In this document: positions 2,035-18,919 of the stretch, one piece after another
How the letters are laid out: every line of letters starts with the position of its first letter
Numbering within the stretch: position 1 is the first letter of the stretch
Virus record (IMG/VR): IMGVR_UViG_3300025098_000245
Location: 1-26,265 of that record
Source: a virus
Strand: one strand, 5' to 3'
Length of the DNA: 26,265 bases
Translations under genes and position numbers: made by a program
The notes under the pieces: model-generated
Databases searched by the model: none
The model's input: only the letters and a program-made list of their open reading frames with translations
Told to the model about the DNA's origin: nothing

Positions 2035-4368
2035 ATGGCTAAAAGGACAATCCAATCGCCGGGCGTTGAGATTCGTGAGAGTGATTTATCACTTCGCACA
2101 GCTCAAACCGGAACTACTACTTATGTAGCTGGCTTTGCATCTGAAGGACCTACCGACGAAGTTGTTGGACTTGGAAGTATTTCTGAGTTTGAGCAAATTT
2201 ATGGTACACCAAAGACTGCAGCTGAACGCTACTTCTATCACACTACACGTGCTACACTTAACTCTACAGGTTCAGTACTTGTTAACCGCTTGCCTTATGG
2301 TGCTAGCAACGGACAAGGCTTCGGTTCTAAGATTAGTGTATTGGCATACCCTGCTATTGTTTGGGATCGCGATGCTGATGCAATCGTAACTGACGCTGAT
2401 AAAGAGAACGCTACTTACCTTCTCGGTGCTCCTACTCAGTTCGAAATGACTGACGAGCAGTACATGCAGTACAAAAATGGTGAGTTGTTTGAACAAAGCA
2501 AAGAACTTAAGACATCCTTCTCAGGTATTTCTGACTTGAGTGGTGCTGCTCTTGTTGTTGTTAACAAGGGACAGACTGTTATTGATGGTCAGTTCAATGG
2601 TTACTATGTTGGTGTTTCTGATAACACTAACCTTAACCCAGCAACAGACTTCGACGCTATTGTTGATGTTAAGACAGCAACAGCTGCTCCAGGCGCTACT
2701 GGTCTTTCTGCTTTCACAGACGTTCCTGCTTCTCGCTTTGAGTTCGCTCTTACAGCTACTCCAGAATTTGGTACTAACCCTGCTACTAATTCCATCTCAC
2801 AAGTTATGGAAGATCGCATCGTTGGTTATGATATCGGTGATCGTGAGTTTGATGATACATTGAACATTGGTGTATTCAAACTTCGTCAGTCTGTATTCTC
2901 TAAGGACGCTAATCGTCTTGATTACCTTCTTGAAGAGGGCTACAATGGCTCCATTGGTCAGTATCGTCAACGTAACTCTGAGAGCGGTGGTGCTCCAGTT
3001 AACTTCTCTCTTGATACTGTAAATGACCAGTCACGCAATATTGACATCGTTGTTAACCCTTTTGTTGCTGACGCTCTTGGTGGTGTTAACCTTAATGCAG
3101 ATGGTACTCCAAAGAAGAAGATTCGTGTTTACACTGAGTCATTCAAAGATGGTCTTCAGGGTGGTGCTATTTCATCTGACGCTGCTGGTCTTCCAATTAA
3201 CTTCTTCGCTGCTACTTTCGCAGGTGAGGTTGCTAAAGCAGACAGTCTTATCCCACTTGGTTCTTACGGTGAAGTAAGTCTTACATCTAAAGAAATCGGC
3301 TCCATTCCACTTAAGCTTGATCGTGCTCTTGATCGTATTCGTAACGATCGTAAGTTTGACATCGATATTATTGCTGAAGGTGGTCTTGGTACTATTCACA
3401 CTTACATGGAGACAGCTAATGCTACTCTCTCTGCTCGTGGTTTTGATGATACTCGTACAACAGCAGCTATTGAAGCTCTTCGTACTTCTAGTGATCTTGA
3501 CTCTACTGGTGAAGAAGCTCGTACAGCTTACACAACAGTCTTTAACCGCTTTGCGACATTTGCAGGTCCTGTTAAGGATGGTGGTCGTGGTGACATTCTT
3601 TTCGTTGCTGATCCAATCCGTCAGATTCTTGTAGCTGGTAAGTCACAGAAGGTACAGAAGGATCCTACAAAGAACTTCTACACTGACATCTACTGGGCAA
3701 TGCGCCATCAGTTCTCTCTTGCTAATACATCCTATGCAACAGTGTTTGCTAACTGGATGAAGGTATATGATAACTATACCGGCCTTTATGTATATGTTCC
3801 ATCTTCTGGCTTTGCTTGTGCTAAGATGGCTTCTACAGATGCTCAGGTTGGTCCATGGGGTGCACCTGCTGGATTCAATCGTGGTATTATTCAAGATGCT
3901 GATGATATTGCAATCAGCCCTAACCAACGTCAACGTGATGATCTTTACACCGTTAACCTTAACCCAGTAGCTAACTTTGCTGATCAGGGTAATGTGTTCT
4001 TCGGTCAGAAGACTCTCCTCAAGAAGCCAAGTGCATTCGATCGTATTAACGTTCGTCGTACTTTCCTCTACCTTGAGAAGATCACTAAAAAGACAATGCA
4101 GTTCTTCCTCTTTGAGAACAACACATTGTTTACTCGTACAAGAGTAGCTAATACTTTGACACCATTCTTTGAGCGTGTTAAAGCTGCTGACGGCTTGTAT
4201 GACTTTATGATCGTCTGTGACGAGCGTAACAATACTGGTGAAGTAATTGACCAGAACGAGCTCGTTGTTGATATTTACCTTAAGCCAGTTCGTACTGCTG
4301 AGTTCATTCTAGTTAACTTCTATGCTACCCGCACTGATACTAACTTTGAAGAGCTTATTGGAGGTTAA
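2035..4368 (+). CDS. 18: Tail sheath protein gp18
   Basis: Contractile sheath subunit; hexameric rings surround the tail tube and shorten on infection. 777 residues, longer than T4 gp18 (659); the extra length probably lies in the variable outer domains. The N-terminus IQSPGVEIRESDLSLRTAQT is typical of sheath proteins (SPGVE followed by a linker arm), and the LVNRLP strand closes the N-terminal core. The C-terminal core DIYLKPVRTAEFILVNFYAT ending in FEELIGG is the characteristic sheath C-terminus that carries the inter-subunit handshake strands. Arginine codons are almost all CGN with a single AGA, unlike the AGA-rich baseplate genes, as expected for a very abundant protein. A late box precedes it and a strong hairpin terminator follows. 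Confidence 0.95.
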   Translation: MAKRTIQSPGVEIRESDLSLRTAQTGTTTYVAGFASEGPTDEVVGLGSISEFEQIYGTPKTAAERYFYHTTRATLNSTGSVLVNRLPYGASNGQGFGSKISVLAYPAIVWDRDADAIVTDADKENATYLLGAPTQFEMTDEQYMQYKNGELFEQSKELKTSFSGISDLSGAALVVVNKGQTVIDGQFNGYYVGVSDNTNLNPATDFDAIVDVKTATAAPGATGLSAFTDVPASRFEFALTATPEFGTNPATNSISQVMEDRIVGYDIGDREFDDTLNIGVFKLRQSVFSKDANRLDYLLEEGYNGSIGQYRQRNSESGGAPVNFSLDTVNDQSRNIDIVVNPFVADALGGVNLNADGTPKKKIRVYTESFKDGLQGGAISSDAAGLPINFFAATFAGEVAKADSLIPLGSYGEVSLTSKEIGSIPLKLDRALDRIRNDRKFDIDIIAEGGLGTIHTYMETANATLSARGFDDTRTTAAIEALRTSSDLDSTGEEARTAYTTVFNRFATFAGPVKDGGRGDILFVADPIRQILVAGKSQKVQKDPTKNFYTDIYWAMRHQFSLANTSYATVFANWMKVYDNYTGLYVYVPSSGFACAKMASTDAQVGPWGAPAGFNRGIIQDADDIAISPNQRQRDDLYTVNLNPVANFADQGNVFFGQKTLLKKPSAFDRINVRRTFLYLEKITKKTMQFFLFENNTLFTRTRVANTLTPFFERVKAADGLYDFMIVCDERNNTGEVIDQNELVVDIYLKPVRTAEFILVNFYATRTDTNFEELIGG

Positions 4369-5219: not shown

Positions 5220-5822
5220 ATGGGATGTGTATATGCTATAACTTGCTCTGATAGATACTATATTGGTTCTACTAAGAACTTTCATAAACGTATGGCTGAG
5301 CATAAAGGGTTACTTGAGAAAGGTACACATAAGAATGCCTATATGCAGAGAGTATTTGATAAGTATGGGGGCTTTGAATATAAGATACTTGAGAGTGTAG
5401 AGGATGATAAGCTTGTAGATAGAGAGCAAGTACATATTGATAGGCACTATGATGATGTTAAGTGTATGAATGCTTCTCCTCATGCTCATAGAGCTTATAA
5501 CCCCTGGACTGATGAGAGTAGAAAGAAGATGAGTGAGTCTTGCAAGGGTCGTACACTTACAGAAGAGACAAAGAAGAAGATTAGTGATACAAAGAAGGGT
5601 AAGCCGAGTCCTAATCATAGAGCTGTTAAGTTTATCTGGAACGATAAAGAGTATGAGTTCTATGCTATGAGCCACTTCCTAAAAGAGTTTGGTGATTCAT
5701 CTCGTTGTATCTATAGAAGATTAACGAAGAATGCTGGTAAGTGGATTACCTTATATCGTGTTAACGAGAGTAGTAAGCACCCTTTTTCTAATGGAGATAA
5801 GCTTTTTTTATCATGGAAGTAG
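5220..5822 (+). CDS. GIY-YIG homing endonuclease (free-standing)
   Basis: 200 residues. The N-terminal nuclease domain shows the GIY-type strand as CVY (residues 3-5), YIG (14-16), the catalytic-type Arg24 in HKRM, and Glu69 in VDREQVHID; the linking helix has the usual NAYMQRVFDKYGG. A DNA-binding tail follows: two NUMOD3-like repeats (SRKKMSESCKGRTLTEETKK, then KISDTKKGKPSPNH) and a helix-turn-helix-like segment (SHFLKEFGDSSRCIYRRL). All expected catalytic positions are present and the frame is intact, so it is probably active. It would cut an intron-less or HEG-less allele of a nearby gene in a co-infecting relative and spread by repair. It lies between the sheath and tube genes, which are adjacent in T4, and probably entered as a selfish insertion. 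Confidence 0.92.
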   Translation: MGCVYAITCSDRYYIGSTKNFHKRMAEHKGLLEKGTHKNAYMQRVFDKYGGFEYKILESVEDDKLVDREQVHIDRHYDDVKCMNASPHAHRAYNPWTDESRKKMSESCKGRTLTEETKKKISDTKKGKPSPNHRAVKFIWNDKEYEFYAMSHFLKEFGDSSRCIYRRLTKNAGKWITLYRVNESSKHPFSNGDKLFLSWK

Positions 5823-7134: not shown

Positions 7135-7933
7135 TATTGAAGTAGCGTTACCATCAGGTAAGAAGGTTAGAGTAAAAGAGCTCAAGAATAAAGAGTATCT
7201 CTCTATTATTAAATTCATTGAGAATAGAGATTTTAGAGGCCTTAGTAGCTTCTTTGATGAGGGGTTTATACGCTCAGATTTAAATATAGTAGATAGAATA
7301 TATCTTCTCATCTATATGAGAATGACATTTATCGATCCAGATCTACACTTAACTATTAATGATAAATCTATAACGGTTAGTATTGCTTCAATGCTAGATA
7401 AAATTGAGGCTAACTATGTTGATCTTGAGACTAAGATTACAGTAAATGGTATCGTAGTTACTTTAGATCTACCATGTATAACATACTTCGAAAACTATGA
7501 TGATTTACTTATTGCTACAATTAAGCATATACAGATAGGTAATGACTCCATTGATTATAGTGAGCTAGATGATGAAGTGCGTGAGGAAGTATTAAGTAAC
7601 TTACCTGCTGCTATATTTGATCATACTGAGAACTTCTTGCAGACAATACAAGAAAATTTATTAAATGTAGATCTTATTGATGCGAATGAATCAATAGGGT
7701 TGGAAGGAACACGCATTAATTTAATGGCTAATAATATGCTAGAGTTTATATCTAGTCTGTTTAGTACTGATTTGAGCGGCTTCTATACTCTCATCTACTC
7801 CTTTGGTAATACAATCATGCCTGGTAGTAGCTTGTTCTTTAATATATCACCAATCGAATCTACAATTATATTACGAACACATCAGAAAAGAGTTAGTGAA
7901 GAGAATAACAAGTTGCAAAAGCAAAAGCAATAA
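7124..7933 (+). CDS. Baseplate hub assembly protein, gp26-like (first copy)
   Basis: 269 residues (T4 gp26 208, gp51 249). Typical of the T4 gp26/gp51 baseplate chaperone group: a short N-terminal strand pair and KVRVKELKNKEYLSIIKFIE, then a helical stretch IVDRIYLLIYMRM, a small beta segment (DKSITVSIASML, VNGIVVTLDLP), then mostly helices, including EEVLSNLPAAIFDHTENFLQ. In T4 these catalyse hub assembly and are present in few or no copies in the virion. The C-terminus is a basic, glutamine-rich tail (NNKLQKQKQ). The ORF overlaps the previous gene by 11 bp but has its own strong Shine-Dalgarno sequence and an upstream late box. Arginine is AGA-rich, unlike the sheath. Family assignment rests on pattern and gene order. 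Confidence 0.65.
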   Translation: MEFSIEVALPSGKKVRVKELKNKEYLSIIKFIENRDFRGLSSFFDEGFIRSDLNIVDRIYLLIYMRMTFIDPDLHLTINDKSITVSIASMLDKIEANYVDLETKITVNGIVVTLDLPCITYFENYDDLLIATIKHIQIGNDSIDYSELDDEVREEVLSNLPAAIFDHTENFLQTIQENLLNVDLIDANESIGLEGTRINLMANNMLEFISSLFSTDLSGFYTLIYSFGNTIMPGSSLFFNISPIESTIILRTHQKRVSEENNKLQKQKQ

Positions 7934-7940
7934 CTAAATA
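7933..7940 (+). promoter_or_regulatory. T4-type late promoter box ACTAAATA
   Basis: The first base is the last base of the preceding stop codon TAA (7931-7933). Five bases (AGTGT) separate the box from the ATG at 7946. Confidence 0.7.
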
Positions 7941-7945
7941 AGTGT

Positions 7946-8686
7946 ATGAGTTCAACCGCTAAAAGCTTTTTGACCAAACTTAAAGATCTTAATGACACCA
8001 ATACTGTTTCTGTTAAAGTACCATCTTTAGATAAGAATGTGGAGTTTAAGCTTCCGAGCATAAAACAGCAGAAGGATCTCCTTCGTACAACATTTGACGG
8101 TGTTGATGGTATTATTACTAGAACAGCTGCAGCTAATCAGATTATTGTAGAAAACGCTATCGGTGAAGAGGAGTTTCTTATCATTGATAAGCCAGCGATT
8201 TTTATTGCTCTCCGAACTGCTTCTATTGGTTCAAAGATTACTGTTAAAGATGAGCAGTACGATCTTAAAAAGGTTAAGCCAATTAAGCTAGATGATGTTA
8301 AGTTTACTGAATCTGTTGAGCATGATGGTATTACTGTCGAACTTAAGGTACCTACACTTGCTGTTGATACAGAGGTTTCAAAGAAGCTAGCTAAAGAGTT
8401 TGCAAAGTTTGATACTATTGATGATAAGCTTAAGCAAAGTATTGATACAGTTGTAGCATTTGAGTCTATTAAGTATATTGAGAGCATATCTGTTGGTGAA
8501 GATAATGTAACCTTTAATGACATTAGTGTTCATGAGAGGAACGAAATTGTAAATCAGCTACCAATTGCTCTAAATCATAAGATTGTTGACTATATCGGTA
8601 GTATTAAAGAGGTAACGGATAAGGCCATGACCGTTGCTGAGGAAGTAGTTGTAGAAATTGATGCAAGCTTCCTATCTAGTGATTAA
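7946..8686 (+). CDS. Baseplate hub assembly protein, gp26-like (second copy)
   Basis: 246 residues, with the same plan as the gene before it: an N-terminal strand-loop-strand (SVKVPSLDKNVEFKLPSI) leading into KQQKDLLRTTFDGVDGIITR, a middle helix (PAIFIALRTASIG), a beta pair (GITVELKVPTLAVD), and a C-terminal helical half with the shared element NEIVNQLPIALNHKIVDYIG, comparable to EEVLSNLPAAIFDHTENFLQ in the first copy. This suggests the two are diverged paralogues of the gp26/gp51 chaperone group. It has its own late box and is directly upstream of the tape measure gene, the place expected for a hub factor (in T4 the hub genes 26, 51, 27, 28, 29 are together). Which of the two corresponds to gp26 and which to gp51 cannot be decided by eye. 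Confidence 0.6.
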   Translation: MSSTAKSFLTKLKDLNDTNTVSVKVPSLDKNVEFKLPSIKQQKDLLRTTFDGVDGIITRTAAANQIIVENAIGEEEFLIIDKPAIFIALRTASIGSKITVKDEQYDLKKVKPIKLDDVKFTESVEHDGITVELKVPTLAVDTEVSKKLAKEFAKFDTIDDKLKQSIDTVVAFESIKYIESISVGEDNVTFNDISVHERNEIVNQLPIALNHKIVDYIGSIKEVTDKAMTVAEEVVVEIDASFLSSD

Positions 8687-8689
8687 ATA
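8682..8689 (+). promoter_or_regulatory. T4-type late promoter box ATTAAATA containing the upstream stop codon
   Basis: The stop codon of the preceding gene (TAA, 8684-8686) is the first half of the TAAATA core. Five bases (ATAAT) separate the box from the GTG at 8695. Confidence 0.7.
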
Positions 8690-8694
8690 ATAAT

Positions 8695-10413
8695 GTGGCC
8701 GAAGACTCATCCAATCCATTCGCTAGCATAATCGGTGCCCTCGCTAATAAGGAGGGTGCTAGAGGTGGTGTTCATGAAGGTGTAATTAAAGATAGCGCAC
8801 AAGGTGTGAGTCCAATCCTAACACCTGCCGAGACAGCTCGTTATGAGAAGATCTTCGGGGTGATGAAGAGGATCGTTAATCCTGGTCCTGAGGCCGGGCA
8901 GCTGGATAAAACATCTGCCGGTAAAGTTGGTGGTGTCGCAGCAATGCAAGCTGCTGCAAAAGGTAAAGCTGCAGAAGGTGGTGGTATAGATTTAGGACCG
9001 TTAGCATTAGCTGGTGTTGCTGCTGGTGTTATTGGTGCTGCCTTAACGCAGATGGAAGAGGATTTCATCAATAAGATTAAAAGTTGGGGTGAAGGTATTG
9101 TTGAGTTTGCTGATAGTACAGGTGATGAGTTTGGTAAGCTAGGTGCTATAGCTGCTAAAATTGCTAAGTTTCTTCCTCTTAAGTTTTTAAAGACATTGCC
9201 ATTTATTGGTTCATTAGTTAACTTCTACGATGCGTGGGTTCACTTTGAAAACGAAGAATATTTTGAAGGTGGCTGGGAACTTGTATCTGGTATAACTAAC
9301 TTCTTACCTGGGGGACAGTTTATATCTCCTTTAATGGATGGTTATAAGATTTATGCTGAGATTCTTGCTAATAAAGAAGCAAAGAAGACAGGAAAGAAGC
9401 CAGCACTTAAAGATATTTTAGGTAAGCAGCTTAAGGCAATTGGTACATATGTGGTGAATCTTATCGTGGATGGTAAAGTACCTATCCTTAGCACCTTCTA
9501 TAAGTTCGGTGAAGGTATTGGACTTATGCTTTCCGGTTCGCCTGATGGGCTCAGTCGTGGTTTAGAGGCATGGACACATATCCTTCCAAGTCTATTAGGT
9601 GGTAAAGAGTCTCCTGTTTATAAATACGTTTCAGAAGGTCTTGGTATCTTATGGGAAATGACAAAAGAGACAAGTTCATCTGCTTTTGAAACGGCTGGTC
9701 AGATGGCAGGTGATGCTTGGAGCTGGATGAGCGAACTCTTTTCCAGTATTGGTGAAACACTATCTAGCTTCTTTGATGGTATTAAGAGTTGGATAGGTGA
9801 TGTTGTGAGTAAAGGTAAAAAAGCTATTTACAACTCTCTACCGGGATGGGCACAAGATGCTTGGACAAGTCTATCTGGCTATGATCCTAATAAAGAGGAG
9901 AATGAGAGAATTGAAAGGGACCACGCCGCTGCGCGTCAGAAGTATCAAGATAGGAAAGCATTTGCGGAATGGCACGAACTGAACGATCCAGAAGGTATTG
10001 AGAAATGGTCGGCACCTCCAAAAAGTATCCCACGTAACTCCCCAGAAATGATGGAGTTTATTAAAGGTCAAAAAGCCTACTATAATTCATCATATGACGC
10101 TTATAAGGCTGAGATGGCGAAAAGAGGTGATGATTGGGTAGCTGAACAAATGAGTATCAACGATGGTATTGTTCATCAGAATGGTAGATCGACTCGCATT
10201 GATAGTATGGATTCTGGAATCTTTGCCAAAAAGGGTGGTCCTATTGACAAGCTACTTGATCAAAACTCTGAGGTAATGAAGACCATTCAAGGTATTAATA
10301 AGCAGCAACTTAGTGTCTTAATAGAGATTCGTGATGGCATCCTCGAACTACAGAAGCCAGCAGATGAACTATCCTTTAGCAGCCCATCCTTAACCCAAGA
10401 CTTCTTTTCATAA
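8695..10413 (+). CDS. 29: Tail length tape measure protein gp29
   Basis: 572 residues against 590 for T4 gp29; it sits directly before the gp48-like gene as in T4 (29, 48, 54). It extends along the tube lumen, sets the tail length and is attached to the hub. Seen: a small-residue hydrophobic segment at about 99-118 (DLGPLALAGVAAGVIGAAL), long helical stretches, several hydrophobic segments (LPFIGSLVNFYDAWVHF, AIGTYVVNLIVDG) and a charged helical C-terminal third with QKYQDRKAFAEWHELNDPEG. The near-equal length predicts a tail close to T4's. The start is GTG, supported by the late box five bases upstream; there is no ATG near. The stop overlaps the next ATG (TAATG). Identification rests on size, composition and gene order rather than a signature motif. 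Confidence 0.7.
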   Translation: MAEDSSNPFASIIGALANKEGARGGVHEGVIKDSAQGVSPILTPAETARYEKIFGVMKRIVNPGPEAGQLDKTSAGKVGGVAAMQAAAKGKAAEGGGIDLGPLALAGVAAGVIGAALTQMEEDFINKIKSWGEGIVEFADSTGDEFGKLGAIAAKIAKFLPLKFLKTLPFIGSLVNFYDAWVHFENEEYFEGGWELVSGITNFLPGGQFISPLMDGYKIYAEILANKEAKKTGKKPALKDILGKQLKAIGTYVVNLIVDGKVPILSTFYKFGEGIGLMLSGSPDGLSRGLEAWTHILPSLLGGKESPVYKYVSEGLGILWEMTKETSSSAFETAGQMAGDAWSWMSELFSSIGETLSSFFDGIKSWIGDVVSKGKKAIYNSLPGWAQDAWTSLSGYDPNKEENERIERDHAAARQKYQDRKAFAEWHELNDPEGIEKWSAPPKSIPRNSPEMMEFIKGQKAYYNSSYDAYKAEMAKRGDDWVAEQMSINDGIVHQNGRSTRIDSMDSGIFAKKGGPIDKLLDQNSEVMKTIQGINKQQLSVLIEIRDGILELQKPADELSFSSPSLTQDFFS

Positions 10414-15426: not shown

Positions 15427-16353
15427 ATGGTTGATTTTGATAAGATTTGGGTTGAGAAGTATCGTCCGGCTAAGCTTGATGATCTTATTCTTGACGAAGG
15501 CTCTCTTAGAGTTGTTAGTCAGTTTAAGGATGAGATTCCTAACTTGCTATTCGTAGGAAGTCCTGGTACTGGTAAGACTACTCTTGCTCGTATCATTGTT
15601 AATGATATTCTAGGTTGTAACTTCCTCTACATTAATGCTTCTGATGAGTCTGGTATTGATGTTATTCGTCATAACATTACTAACTTTGCTCAGACCAAGT
15701 CATTTGATGGTGGTATTAAAGTAGTAGTTCTAGATGAGGCTGATGGACTTACTCCTCAGGCTCAAGCTGCTCTACGTAATACTATGGAGACGTACGCTAA
15801 GTACTGTCGTTTTATTCTTACTGCTAACTATAAGCATAAGATCATTCCAGCTCTTCAGTCAAGATGTCAGTCAATCGATCTTAAACCTGAGATCAAACAA
15901 GCAGCTAAGCGTTGCTTCAATATACTAAAACAAGAAAACGTAAACGTAAGTGATGAACAGAAAATTAAATTTGGTCAGCTGGTTAAAAGAACATTCCCTG
16001 ACCTCCGAAAAACTATCAACGAGCTCCAAAAGTCGGTTGTTGATGGGGAGTTGTTTATTGATAGCAGCGGGAGTGACAGTGAACTTCTTAAGGCAGTCAC
16101 GGAAGGACTCAAAGAAGACTCGATTAAGGTAAGAAAGTATCTTATCGAGAACGAAGATCGCTTTCAAGGTGACTATGATACCCTTCTTGCTAACTTGTTA
16201 GACTATCTCTATGAGCAGCCTATTGATGAGTTCAAGAAGAAGCAGATGATTACTATCATTGCTGATCATCTTTATAAGAGTGCCTTCGTTGTTGATAAAG
16301 AAATTAATGCTTTTGCTTGTATTGTTGCTTTAGAATTAGCCCTTAGGGCATAA
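15427..16353 (+). CDS. 44: Sliding clamp loader large subunit gp44
   Basis: 308 residues (T4 gp44 319). The AAA+ ATPase subunit of the gp44/62 complex that loads the gp45 clamp for replication and, in T4, indirectly for late transcription. Seen: the N-terminal VEKYRPAKLDDLI, Walker A GSPGTGKT (44-51), Walker B VVVLDEAD (99-106), sensor 1 FILTANY (129-135), and the arginine-finger SRC motif (145-147). A C-terminal helical collar follows (to LYEQPIDEFKKKQMITIIAD). All catalytic residues are present. Its stop codon TAA is part of the next late box. The gene is separated from dut by 21 bases and may share its transcript. Confidence 0.95.
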   Translation: MVDFDKIWVEKYRPAKLDDLILDEGSLRVVSQFKDEIPNLLFVGSPGTGKTTLARIIVNDILGCNFLYINASDESGIDVIRHNITNFAQTKSFDGGIKVVVLDEADGLTPQAQAALRNTMETYAKYCRFILTANYKHKIIPALQSRCQSIDLKPEIKQAAKRCFNILKQENVNVSDEQKIKFGQLVKRTFPDLRKTINELQKSVVDGELFIDSSGSDSELLKAVTEGLKEDSIKVRKYLIENEDRFQGDYDTLLANLLDYLYEQPIDEFKKKQMITIIADHLYKSAFVVDKEINAFACIVALELALRA

Positions 16354-16356
16354 ATA
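16349..16356 (+). promoter_or_regulatory. T4-type late promoter box CATAAATA containing gp44 stop codon
   Basis: The gp44 stop codon (TAA, 16351-16353) is the first half of the TAAATA core. Five bases (TATGC) separate it from the ATG at 16362. It should drive the three-gene operon to 18919. Confidence 0.7.
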
Positions 16357-16361
16357 TATGC

Positions 16362-17861
16362 ATGAAGTTTAACGACTCCTTCGATAAATACATGAGCCTC
16401 TTTAATGAGGCCAAGGAAGCTCCTAAAGGTAAGCATTACGATAAAGCTGGTAGACTTCAGTCTGGTGATGCTGACTCTGATGGTCGTGGAGGTCCTAAGT
16501 TTCGTTCTGACCCTACCTATAAGAATCCTAATGAGGATGAAGAAGGTAGAGAGTTCTTCTTTGGTTATGATATTGAAAATGTTCATCCAGTTGAAGAGTT
16601 TGTAAAAGCAAATTACAAAGAGGGTGAGTATGGGGTGTCTGTTGGTCATGGTGATGATGTAATGAATTACTTAAAAGTTAATGTTGATCTCGATGATGAG
16701 AGAGGTAAGAAACTTTTAGACATGATTGAAGATTGTGATGGTGAGGGTAATTTCGATGAGGATGATTACTTTGAGGATGAAGAAGGTAAGAAAAAGGGTC
16801 TCGATGGTAAAGCATGCTGGGATGGTTATGAGCTACGAGGTACTAAAAAGAAGGGTGGCAAGACTGTTGACAATTGTGTAAAGTCTTCTGATGAAGAGTC
16901 TTCAGAAGATAACGAGACTGCTAAGAAGATTGGTAAGGGTGCGTTAAAGCTTGCCGGTAAGGCTGCTTTAGGTACTGCGAAGTTAGCTGGTAAAGGTGCT
17001 CGTGAGGTTGCTCATTTTGCAACAGATGATGTGTATAGGAGTAAAAAAGAAGATTGCGAGACTTGTGGATGTGAAGAGAATCCAGAGTATGGTCACTTAG
17101 ATGATACTTACTCTAAATACATTGATCAGTACGAGCCTAAAGAAGATTGTGAGACTTGTGGATGTGAAGATGCTGAAGCTGGTTGTGAATGTGGCAATTG
17201 TCCGGACTGCACTCCTAAAGAAGATAACGAATATGATACGGGTGAAGTGTTTGATACAATTTCTGATGATATTAAAGCTGGTATGACAATGGCTGAACTT
17301 ATAGACGAGCATGGTGCTGATTACGTTAAGGAGTTTATGGAATATCTCGCTGTAAGTAAACGTGATAGACCTACTGCTAAAACAAACCCACGCCCACATG
17401 TCAATCGTAAGGTAGTCAAAAATATTAAGAATACACCTGGACCAGATCCAATTGAAGCTGAAGATGCTGAGTATGATATGGGTGAAGTGCTTGATGCAAT
17501 TGCTGCTGATTTTGCAAATGGTATGACTAAATCAGAACTTGAGGCTAGATATGGTACTGATGCTGTTGCAAAGTTCATTAAGTATGGTGATGAAGATGGA
17601 CTTACTGCCTCTGAAGATGGTGAAAGAGTAGACAAAGATCGTATGAAGTGTAACTCACCTCGTCGTACATCTGGTGGTTCTAAGAAGTTTGTTGTTAAGG
17701 CTTGTGAGAATGGTAAAGAGAAGGTTGTACGCTTCGGTGATCCAAATATGAAGATCAAGAAGAGTAATCCAAAGCGTCGTAAGTCTTTCCGTGCACGTCA
17801 TAAGTGTGACCAGAAGAAGAGCAAGTTCTCCGCTGGTTACTGGAGCTGTAAGAAGTGGTAA
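16362..17861 (+). CDS. Cysteine-rich multidomain protein with capsid-targeting-like N-terminus
   Basis: 499 residues in at least five parts. Residues 1-17, MKFNDSFDKYMSLFNEA, resemble the N-terminal targeting peptide of T4 internal proteins, with FNE|A as possible prohead-protease site. An acidic region leads to KACWDGYELRGTKKKGGKTV ending in DNC (Cys152 and Cys172), a module I recall from marine T4-like phages. Next is a Lys/Ala/Gly amphipathic stretch (KIGKGALKLAGKAALGTAKL). Residues 232-283 hold ten cysteines: two CETCGC copies, then CECGNCPDC. Two related helical repeats follow (YDTGEVFDTISDDIKAGMT at about 291, YDMGEVLDAIAADFANGMT at about 371). The last 70 residues are basic and end with RRKSFRARHKCD and GYWSCKKW, also familiar from this phage group. 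Function unknown; a packaged or head-internal role is inferred. Confidence 0.85.
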   Translation: MKFNDSFDKYMSLFNEAKEAPKGKHYDKAGRLQSGDADSDGRGGPKFRSDPTYKNPNEDEEGREFFFGYDIENVHPVEEFVKANYKEGEYGVSVGHGDDVMNYLKVNVDLDDERGKKLLDMIEDCDGEGNFDEDDYFEDEEGKKKGLDGKACWDGYELRGTKKKGGKTVDNCVKSSDEESSEDNETAKKIGKGALKLAGKAALGTAKLAGKGAREVAHFATDDVYRSKKEDCETCGCEENPEYGHLDDTYSKYIDQYEPKEDCETCGCEDAEAGCECGNCPDCTPKEDNEYDTGEVFDTISDDIKAGMTMAELIDEHGADYVKEFMEYLAVSKRDRPTAKTNPRPHVNRKVVKNIKNTPGPDPIEAEDAEYDMGEVLDAIAADFANGMTKSELEARYGTDAVAKFIKYGDEDGLTASEDGERVDKDRMKCNSPRRTSGGSKKFVVKACENGKEKVVRFGDPNMKIKKSNPKRRKSFRARHKCDQKKSKFSAGYWSCKKW

Positions 17862-17864
17862 GTT

Positions 17865-18716
17865 ATGGCTATTGATCCAAATGTACATGCCCCATATCAA
17901 TCAGTAGCATATGGAGCATATGTTGAAATTACTGATGATACAAGATTTCCAACAGTCTCATCAACAAGTTCAGGCTTCCAAGGAACCAAGACATCTGAGT
18001 TTCCACACTATGCACTATTAACTAAAGATATTGATGGTGGTGTTGGTGGTGGCAATTTACCTATTGCTGCTGGAGAGGTTGATGGTTATAGTTCAATCAA
18101 CAAGTTTGGTGCCACTGACGGTGATGTAACAGCAGGTACCATTTGGGATGGTAATGCAGGAACAGCAGTTTACCCTTATCCAGCAGCCGGTGTTATTACA
18201 ATTACATCAGCTTCTAATGCTGGTGCTGATGTTGAAGTTCAAGGTTTAGATAGTAATTTCGAACCAGCTACAGAAGTTGTATCAATTGGTGGCACAGGAA
18301 CAACTACATTTTCTCGTATATTCAGAGCTATTATGGTTGATACAAACAATGATAGTGATGTTACAATTAACCAAGGTGGTAGTATTGCTGCTAAAATTAT
18401 TGAAGATCAAGGTCAAACGTTGATGGCTGTTTATACAGTTCCTGCCGGTAAGACAGCTTATCTTACTCATGTTAATTACAGTTCTGATAAAGCTGCTACT
18501 AATTCAGCTATGCAGTTTAGATTGTTTGCTAGACCTGAGAACGGTACATTCAACATCAAAGGAGTCTTAAGCTCAGCTGGTGGTGCTGTTATTGACTATA
18601 AGTATGATGTACCTCTTAAGTTTACAGAGAAGACAGATATTAAAATAGATCTTGTTGCTGCGCAAGCTACAACATGTACAGCTACATTTGAAATTATTTT
18701 AGTGGATAACGTATAA
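17865..18716 (+). CDS. Beta-rich virion structural protein (marine phage type)
   Basis: 283 residues, Gly/Ala/Thr/Ser-rich, beta throughout with no clear enzyme motif. The C-terminal half has the clearest order: LMAVYTVPAGKTAYLTHVNY, MQFRLFARPENGTFNIKGVL, YDVPLKFTEKTDIKIDLVAA and CTATFEIILVDNV, a jelly-roll-like set of strands seen in structural proteins of marine phages. The first 150 residues contain ITITSASNAGADVEVQGLDS, which may be an immunoglobulin-like module. It starts three bases after the preceding stop and overlaps the next ATG by one base (TAATG), so all three genes are one translation-coupled unit. It may be a capsid decoration or tail surface protein. No firm family name. Confidence 0.7.
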   Translation: MAIDPNVHAPYQSVAYGAYVEITDDTRFPTVSSTSSGFQGTKTSEFPHYALLTKDIDGGVGGGNLPIAAGEVDGYSSINKFGATDGDVTAGTIWDGNAGTAVYPYPAAGVITITSASNAGADVEVQGLDSNFEPATEVVSIGGTGTTTFSRIFRAIMVDTNNDSDVTINQGGSIAAKIIEDQGQTLMAVYTVPAGKTAYLTHVNYSSDKAATNSAMQFRLFARPENGTFNIKGVLSSAGGAVIDYKYDVPLKFTEKTDIKIDLVAAQATTCTATFEIILVDNV

Positions 18717-18919
18717 TGAAATCTTTTAAAGAATTTTTTGAAGAGAACTTCAAGGACGGTAAGAAGAAAGGCAAGAGTCGTCCTGGTCGTGTTAAGAAGT
18801 CGGGTGCAAGCTGTAAAGGCTCTGTAACTGAGCTTCGTAAGAAGGCTAAGAAGTATGGTGGTGAGAAAGGTAAGATGTATCACTGGTGTGCTAACATGAA
18901 GAAGGGTAAAAAGAAGTAA
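18716..18919 (+). CDS. Small basic protein with T4-type capsid-targeting N-terminus
   Basis: 67 residues. The first ten, MKSFKEFFEE, match the T4 internal-protein targeting sequence MKTYQEFIAE almost position by position (M-K-S/T-F/Y-K/Q-E-F-x-x-E); FEE|N would be the prohead-protease site. The rest is lysine-rich: KSRPGRVKKSGASCKGSVTE, then LRKKAKKYGG, then KMYHWCANMKKGKKK, with two cysteines. This domain is familiar to me from marine T4-like phages, often fused to larger proteins. In T4 the internal proteins IPI-III are packed beside the DNA, cleaved by gp21 and injected with it. A DNA-binding, packaged, injected role here is inferred. Coupled to the gene before it. Intact frame; real gene by coupling and domain conservation. 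Confidence 0.75.
   Translation: MKSFKEFFEENFKDGKKKGKSRPGRVKKSGASCKGSVTELRKKAKKYGGEKGKMYHWCANMKKGKKK

Follow-up and report, generated by a model that had tools for sequence, protein, structure and literature searches.

The closest described counterparts of the protein considered here are the internal head proteins of phage T4. According to published descriptions, all that T-even internal proteins have in common is a conserved targeting sequence. In T4 this capsid-targeting leader runs to 10–19 residues, with positions 4, 7, 8 and 10 important: targeting information lies mainly in residues 4 and 7, and processing at 8 and 10 (PMC9026906), with 4, 7 and 10 picked out by mutagenesis. The T4 prohead protease gp21 cuts after L/I-x-E, and the propeptide of T4 gp23 is 65 residues long. 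In the T4 genome record (NC_000866), the leaders read MKTYQEFIAE in IPII and IPIII, and MKTFKEFTSTTTPVSTITE in IPI. T4 also packages an ADP-ribosyltransferase, Alt. Beyond T4, polyvalent proteins carry mixed effector domains in one chain, and their packaging and injection have been predicted (Iyer et al. 2017, PMC5512222), and the head ejection proteins of phiKZ and SPN3US belong to a system in which many head proteins are cut after x-E by a gp21-like protease.

The window analysed here is a stretch of 26,265 nucleotides, the IMG/VR virus record IMGVR_UViG_3300025098_000245 from position 1 to 26,265. The features that concern us are the following, a down arrow marking a predicted cut here and below.

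16349..16356, + strand: T4-late-promoter-like CATAAATA, before the 499-aa gene
16362..17861, + strand: gene of a 499-aa companion protein with the leader-like start MKFNDSFDKYMSLFNE↓AKEAPKGKHYD (MSLFNE↓AKEAPKGKHYD) and a DUF5754-like basic C-terminal end
17865..18716, + strand: 283-aa gene (phrog_8198)
18716..18919, + strand: 67-aa gene, ATG at 18716, stop at 18919
18716..18745, + strand: capsid-targeting-like leader MKSFKEFFEE, whose tail F-E-E is a predicted prohead-protease mark
18746..18916, + strand: predicted mature 57-aa basic NFxDGK module (NFKDGKKKGKSRPGRVKKSGASCKGSV...KMYHWCANMKKGKKK)

The 67-aa reading frame proposed in the original prediction is real. An independent 41-kb contig encodes the identical protein in the same gene order, and comparison with relatives (amino acid identity 80–93%, dN 0.07–0.18, dS saturated in most pairs) indicates that the gene is under purifying selection. 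The description of the 57-residue remainder as lysine-rich with two cysteines was likewise borne out: it holds 19 Lys, 3 Arg and 3 acidic residues, a net charge of about +19. The gene's start codon and the stop codon of the 283-aa gene overlap (TAATGA); the 283-aa gene is missing from the sister phage G033 (sheath 91% and clamp loader 98% identical). The promoter-like box is present in G033 too, and homologues of the 499-aa protein start MKFDDSFDKYMSLYNE↓AKEAP in G033 and MQFDDLVEKLLRE↓AKEAP in G007. The 499-aa, 283-aa and 67-aa genes would form one late unit transcribed from CATAAATA at 16349.

Several observations concern the surroundings of the gene. The DUF5754-like end of the 499-aa protein is common to HTVC008M, Roseobacter phages and others, and inner segments of the same protein reappear in module-bearing proteins such as L064. 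T4-late-promoter-like TAAATA boxes lie at window positions 1411, 2022, 7935, 16349 and 18964 and at the starts of genes 5220 and 8695; they stand just ~5–8 bases 5' of several start codons, where a clear Shine-Dalgarno site is not seen, and late transcripts in this lineage may have little or no 5' untranslated region. A GIY-YIG homing endonuclease gene (5220–5822) sits among the tail genes.

Like T4 IPI, IPII and IPIII, the window protein combines a short N-terminal leader with a small predicted mature part and a predicted cut after Glu. The leader, with F4, F7, F8 and E10, has the length and the key residues of the T4 class, and only position 8 (Ile in T4) departs from T4. The description of this N-terminus as near-perfect T4 was overstated, since identity amounts to 5/10 against MKTYQEFIAE of IPII and IPIII and 6/7 against MKTFKEF of IPI; the fit at residues 4, 7 and 10 stands. 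Identity of at least 5/7 to a T4 internal protein leader recurs in only 3 of ~1,700 other N-termini of 14 related records, so that the likeness exceeds chance. Leaders in the T4 register, defined as hydrophobic residues at 4, 7 and 8 with Glu at 10, were found at 25 of 1715 predicted N-termini against 8 of 6708 internal methionines in the 14 records (Fisher p=1e-11); the gene calls behind this count are crude, and it takes in the genes of the module along with a few obvious false positives. Several small basic proteins have such N-termini, and so do gp22-like scaffold proteins. Leader-like starts are also more frequent in module proteins (59/149) than in other genes (127/1715; p=2e-24), many of the sequences being mutually related.

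Sister phages carry MKTFKEFFTE, MKTFKEFFAE, MKTFKEFYTE or MKTFKQYFTE in the equivalent slot. In G033, another basic module, GLWANINAKKKRGGKSARKG..., comes after MKTFKEFFTE, and the remainder of the NFxDGK module from PGRVK on comes next. The GLWANINAKKKRGGKSARKG stretch also follows MKTFKEFYTE in G049, MKTFKEFFAE in G055 and MKTFKQYFTE in G056, with a further C-terminal module there. These arrangements indicate that the cargo varies behind a retained leader. Three other relatives (L004, L005 and L007) have KTFKEFFEE↓N within a longer chain, preceded by another small module (MPYSVRKVNGKYCVYKK...); the arrangement resembles the joining of a leader-bearing gene to an upstream gene.

In the original prediction the protein was a packaged one that would condense DNA or act in the host on entry. 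The mature part is not a one-off cargo: it is a conserved module with at least 547 relatives in IMG/VR, also found at the end of or inside many proteins. An alignment of 60 diverse members has 30 invariant columns out of 67 and a mean column identity of 79%; a single module copy was present in every one of 13 records covered completely or for the most part. No corresponding family was found in Pfam, PHROGs or NCBIfam, and no member in 84,980 bacterial and archaeal species of a genome collection or in 50,697 named phage records, where a further query returned only E>=3. Relatives would have scored 1e-6 to 1e-30 in a local control of the named-phage search; the absence is therefore real at that sensitivity, and a masking artefact was rejected, as the control search would detect relatives. 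By these searches the module is a conserved, previously undescribed family. T4 internal proteins diverge fast, and no mature sequence in common with them was noted; the module, by contrast, is strongly conserved and is shuffled from protein to protein. Its conservation suggests that it has a conserved binding partner in addition to DNA.

The AlphaFold2 model built from 60 sequences (mean pLDDT 69.5) shows no secondary structure in its first half, where confidence is low, and predicted helices at residues 37–46 and 49–66 of the 67-aa protein; fold comparison gave no PDB match and nothing at E<=0.001. Two candidate similarities were set aside. A match to the OAR motif of animal homeodomains (Pfam PF03826) at residues 32–47 is a 16-residue likeness taken as chance (a match just above the Pfam cut-off in L032 is probably chance too), and that to an Ino80 chain (E=0.018, residues 6–29) is a chance match of a basic stretch.

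In what contexts does the module occur? As a free-standing protein it follows several different leaders, MKSFKEFFEE, MNSFIQFFSE, MITFSTYFLE, MINFQTYFE, MRAxEFITE, MKINEIITE and MRISDIINE, all ending in E↓N; in the L031 group the genes start with GTG or TTG, and the leaders then read MKDFKSFYLE and similar. In fused form it stands at the end of, or within, larger proteins with dozens of unrelated partners, usually at the C-terminus of enzyme-like proteins that bear their own leaders, and in L003, L018 and L227 it is N-terminal or internal. The L227 protein (match at 3001) reverses the usual order, with MRAKEFITE and the module preceding several hundred further residues. Partner regions match the ART-PolyVal, GNAT, nucleotidyltransferase, NT5C and ParB_N families, some of them below Pfam cut-offs. 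Some precursors contain a second E-N-F-x-D-G-K copy further upstream, between domains. What is a single fused protein in G022 (..IREAINE↓ADPKKGTGKKP...NTE↓NFRDGKKK) is represented in G008 and G014 by two adjacent genes, each with its own leader (in G008 ..QILQE↓ADPKKGTGKKP and MITFSTYFLE↓NFKDKK).

The fused forms invite comparison with Alt: they, for example the ART-like L026, resemble it in joining an enzyme-like cargo to a leader and in having a gp21-type mark close to the C-terminal end. The window protein differs from Alt in having no enzyme domain, and in the fused forms, unlike Alt, the C-terminal module is conserved as a unit and recurs on many different partners. They share ART-PolyVal and ParB-like matches with polyvalent proteins, but their domains are bounded by repeated prohead-protease marks and occur in T4-like phages; at least two disparate domains, the hallmark of polyvalent proteins, are present in the fused relatives, and the window protein has a leader and one module. 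A companion module, KYDVWPSAYASG, is joined to NFxDGK in several relatives and links them to the cyanophage T4-GC0119 proteins (Syn9 gp114, S-CREM2 gp160). The latter lack the NFxDGK module, and S-CREM2 gp160 lacks a T4-register leader.

The junction before the module was compared over 185 distinct upstream sequences grouped into 134 clusters less than 50% alike. The residue preceding the module (P1) is Glu in 134/134 clusters, and P3 is hydrophobic in 118 of them (88%) against 29% at P5–P14 (p=1.5e-46); as a control, the position two residues ahead of Glu anywhere in the partner regions is hydrophobic in 29.5%. The P3 residues are V in 35 clusters, I in 32, L in 16, M in 15, F in 13 and Y in 7, L or I thus accounting for 36%, and 16 clusters have no hydrophobic P3. 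Positions P2, P4 and P5 show no hydrophobic enrichment across the 134 clusters. As far as sequence can tell, the junction is the T4 gp21 mark L/I-x-E with a wider P3, extended to V, M and F. The window junction, F-E-E↓N, has Phe at P3, outside the L/I of T4 and unlike the I-A-E of its internal proteins. Probable major-capsid cut sites in these phages, found by aligning their sequences with T4 gp23 by eye, read VAE, VTE, LKE, LNE, LAE and IEE; V at P3 is to be expected in these phages in view of VAE and VTE. phiKZ cuts at S/A-x-E, so that its P3 differs from that of the module junction, and no sequence relation is claimed.

Is a suitable protease available in this lineage? The window fragment has no head genes, gp21 and gp23 included, and a search of 22 records, belonging to the window lineage or to related fragments, found neither of these two. 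Both occur together, in the same nine records, among 24 examined (the window and 23 module-bearing records, many of them fragments). In the window lineage, portal, gp21 (S77) and gp23 are present in two near-complete relatives whose terminases are 66–68% identical, G044 (171 kb) and G045 (155 kb). The gp21 (S77) and gp23 that accompany capsid-targeting leaders are thus found in the near-complete relatives and in the nine module-bearing records. The module is present in neither G044 nor G045 despite their gp21, which marks it as an accessory trait.

Virion proteomes of cultured relatives offer a further line of evidence. In the Synechococcus phage S-CREM2, whose virion proteome is published (PMC10665884), 5 of 6 proteins with T4-register leaders are in virions (5/51 detected against 1/167 undetected proteins, p=0.003): gp6 SAM hydrolase, gp13, gp14 kinase, gp136 and gp154 cytidylyltransferase. 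The KYDVWPSAYASG companion module is present in S-CREM2 gp160, also a virion protein. The result was not repeated in S-SZBM1, where none of four T4-register N-termini belongs to the 30 proteins detected in virions (PMC9146016); two of the four are plainly not cargo (endonuclease V and RecA). With the two phages pooled (p = 0.02), virion enrichment of leader-bearing proteins is suggestive only. The Cas9-like gp12 of S-CREM2 (L374, record 7704–10313), detected in virions, starts MTSRWSNWSTGSDKKPLRFASFMAE↓AAVD, with a possible leader ending further in.

Taken together, comparison supports well the original proposal of capsid targeting and cleavage, through the sister-phage leaders, the invariant E↓N with hydrophobic P3, the gp21 of the lineage and the S-CREM2 virions, with the amendment that the mark here is F-E-E instead of L/I-x-E. 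We consider it probable (roughly 0.7) that the 67-aa protein is a cleaved, DNA-bound and injected internal head protein of an uncultivated T4-like phage, and that the modules of its relatives are protease-delimited cassettes. Residues 1–10 would act as a capsid-targeting sequence that binds the prohead core and brings the protein into it, whereupon a gp21-type prohead protease would cut after Glu10. The very basic 57-aa NFKDGK... protein left by the cut would stay bound to the packaged DNA, as its charge predicts, and the mature +19 piece would be ejected into the host together with the genome. In relatives, a like cut would free the module from larger precursors, making the family a set of protease-delimited cargo cassettes.

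Another possibility for the role of the module is that it serves as an address label or DNA tether for fused enzymes in the head and is later cut off at the junction. Its usual C-terminal place on enzyme-like proteins with leaders of their own agrees with this, as do its strong conservation beside mutually unrelated partners and the trimming of T4 Alt by gp21 at both ends, C-terminus included. Yet the window protein and about 20 other N-terminal variants have no partner to carry, and the N-terminal or internal position in L003, L018 and L227 fits poorly with such a role, which we regard as unlikely while granting it the greatest weight among the alternatives.

It is improbable, in our estimate, that the protein remains in the cell as a late protein that binds DNA or acts on the host; the leader likeness would then be incidental and E-N-[FY]-x-D-G-K a domain start. 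The weakness of the structure model and the commonness of small basic proteins around module genes would suit such a protein; a lone hydrophobic P3 with free P2 and P4 is the gp21 pattern and not helix periodicity, however, and the leader is retained before another cargo. Slightly less probable still is a component of the prohead core, a scaffold like gp67 or gp68 that is cut up and expelled before DNA packaging. Although gp22-like proteins beside gp23 in some phages start similarly (MKNISDILRE, MSDIKTILGE), T4 gp67 is strongly acidic as against about +19 for the 67-aa protein, whose sequence past residue 10 contains few internal cut marks.

On balance, the internal head protein reading is preferred: the 67-aa protein is predicted to work like a T4 internal protein, and its family would represent a new, modular variant of that class. 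More tentatively, and at somewhat less than even odds, uncultivated aquatic T4-like phages may share a head-loading grammar of leader, effector domains and NFxDGK, bounded by hydrophobic-x-E, in which the prohead protease would free several cargoes per precursor in polyprotein-like fashion and NFxDGK would be the shared DNA-bound piece. The sequence rule that emerges, a short hydrophobic leader ending in x-E and a hydrophobic-x-E↓N before a conserved module, could pick out proteins likely to be head-loaded and injected by uncultivated T4-like phages, and with it the generality of T4 internal-protein packaging, an old question, becomes directly testable.
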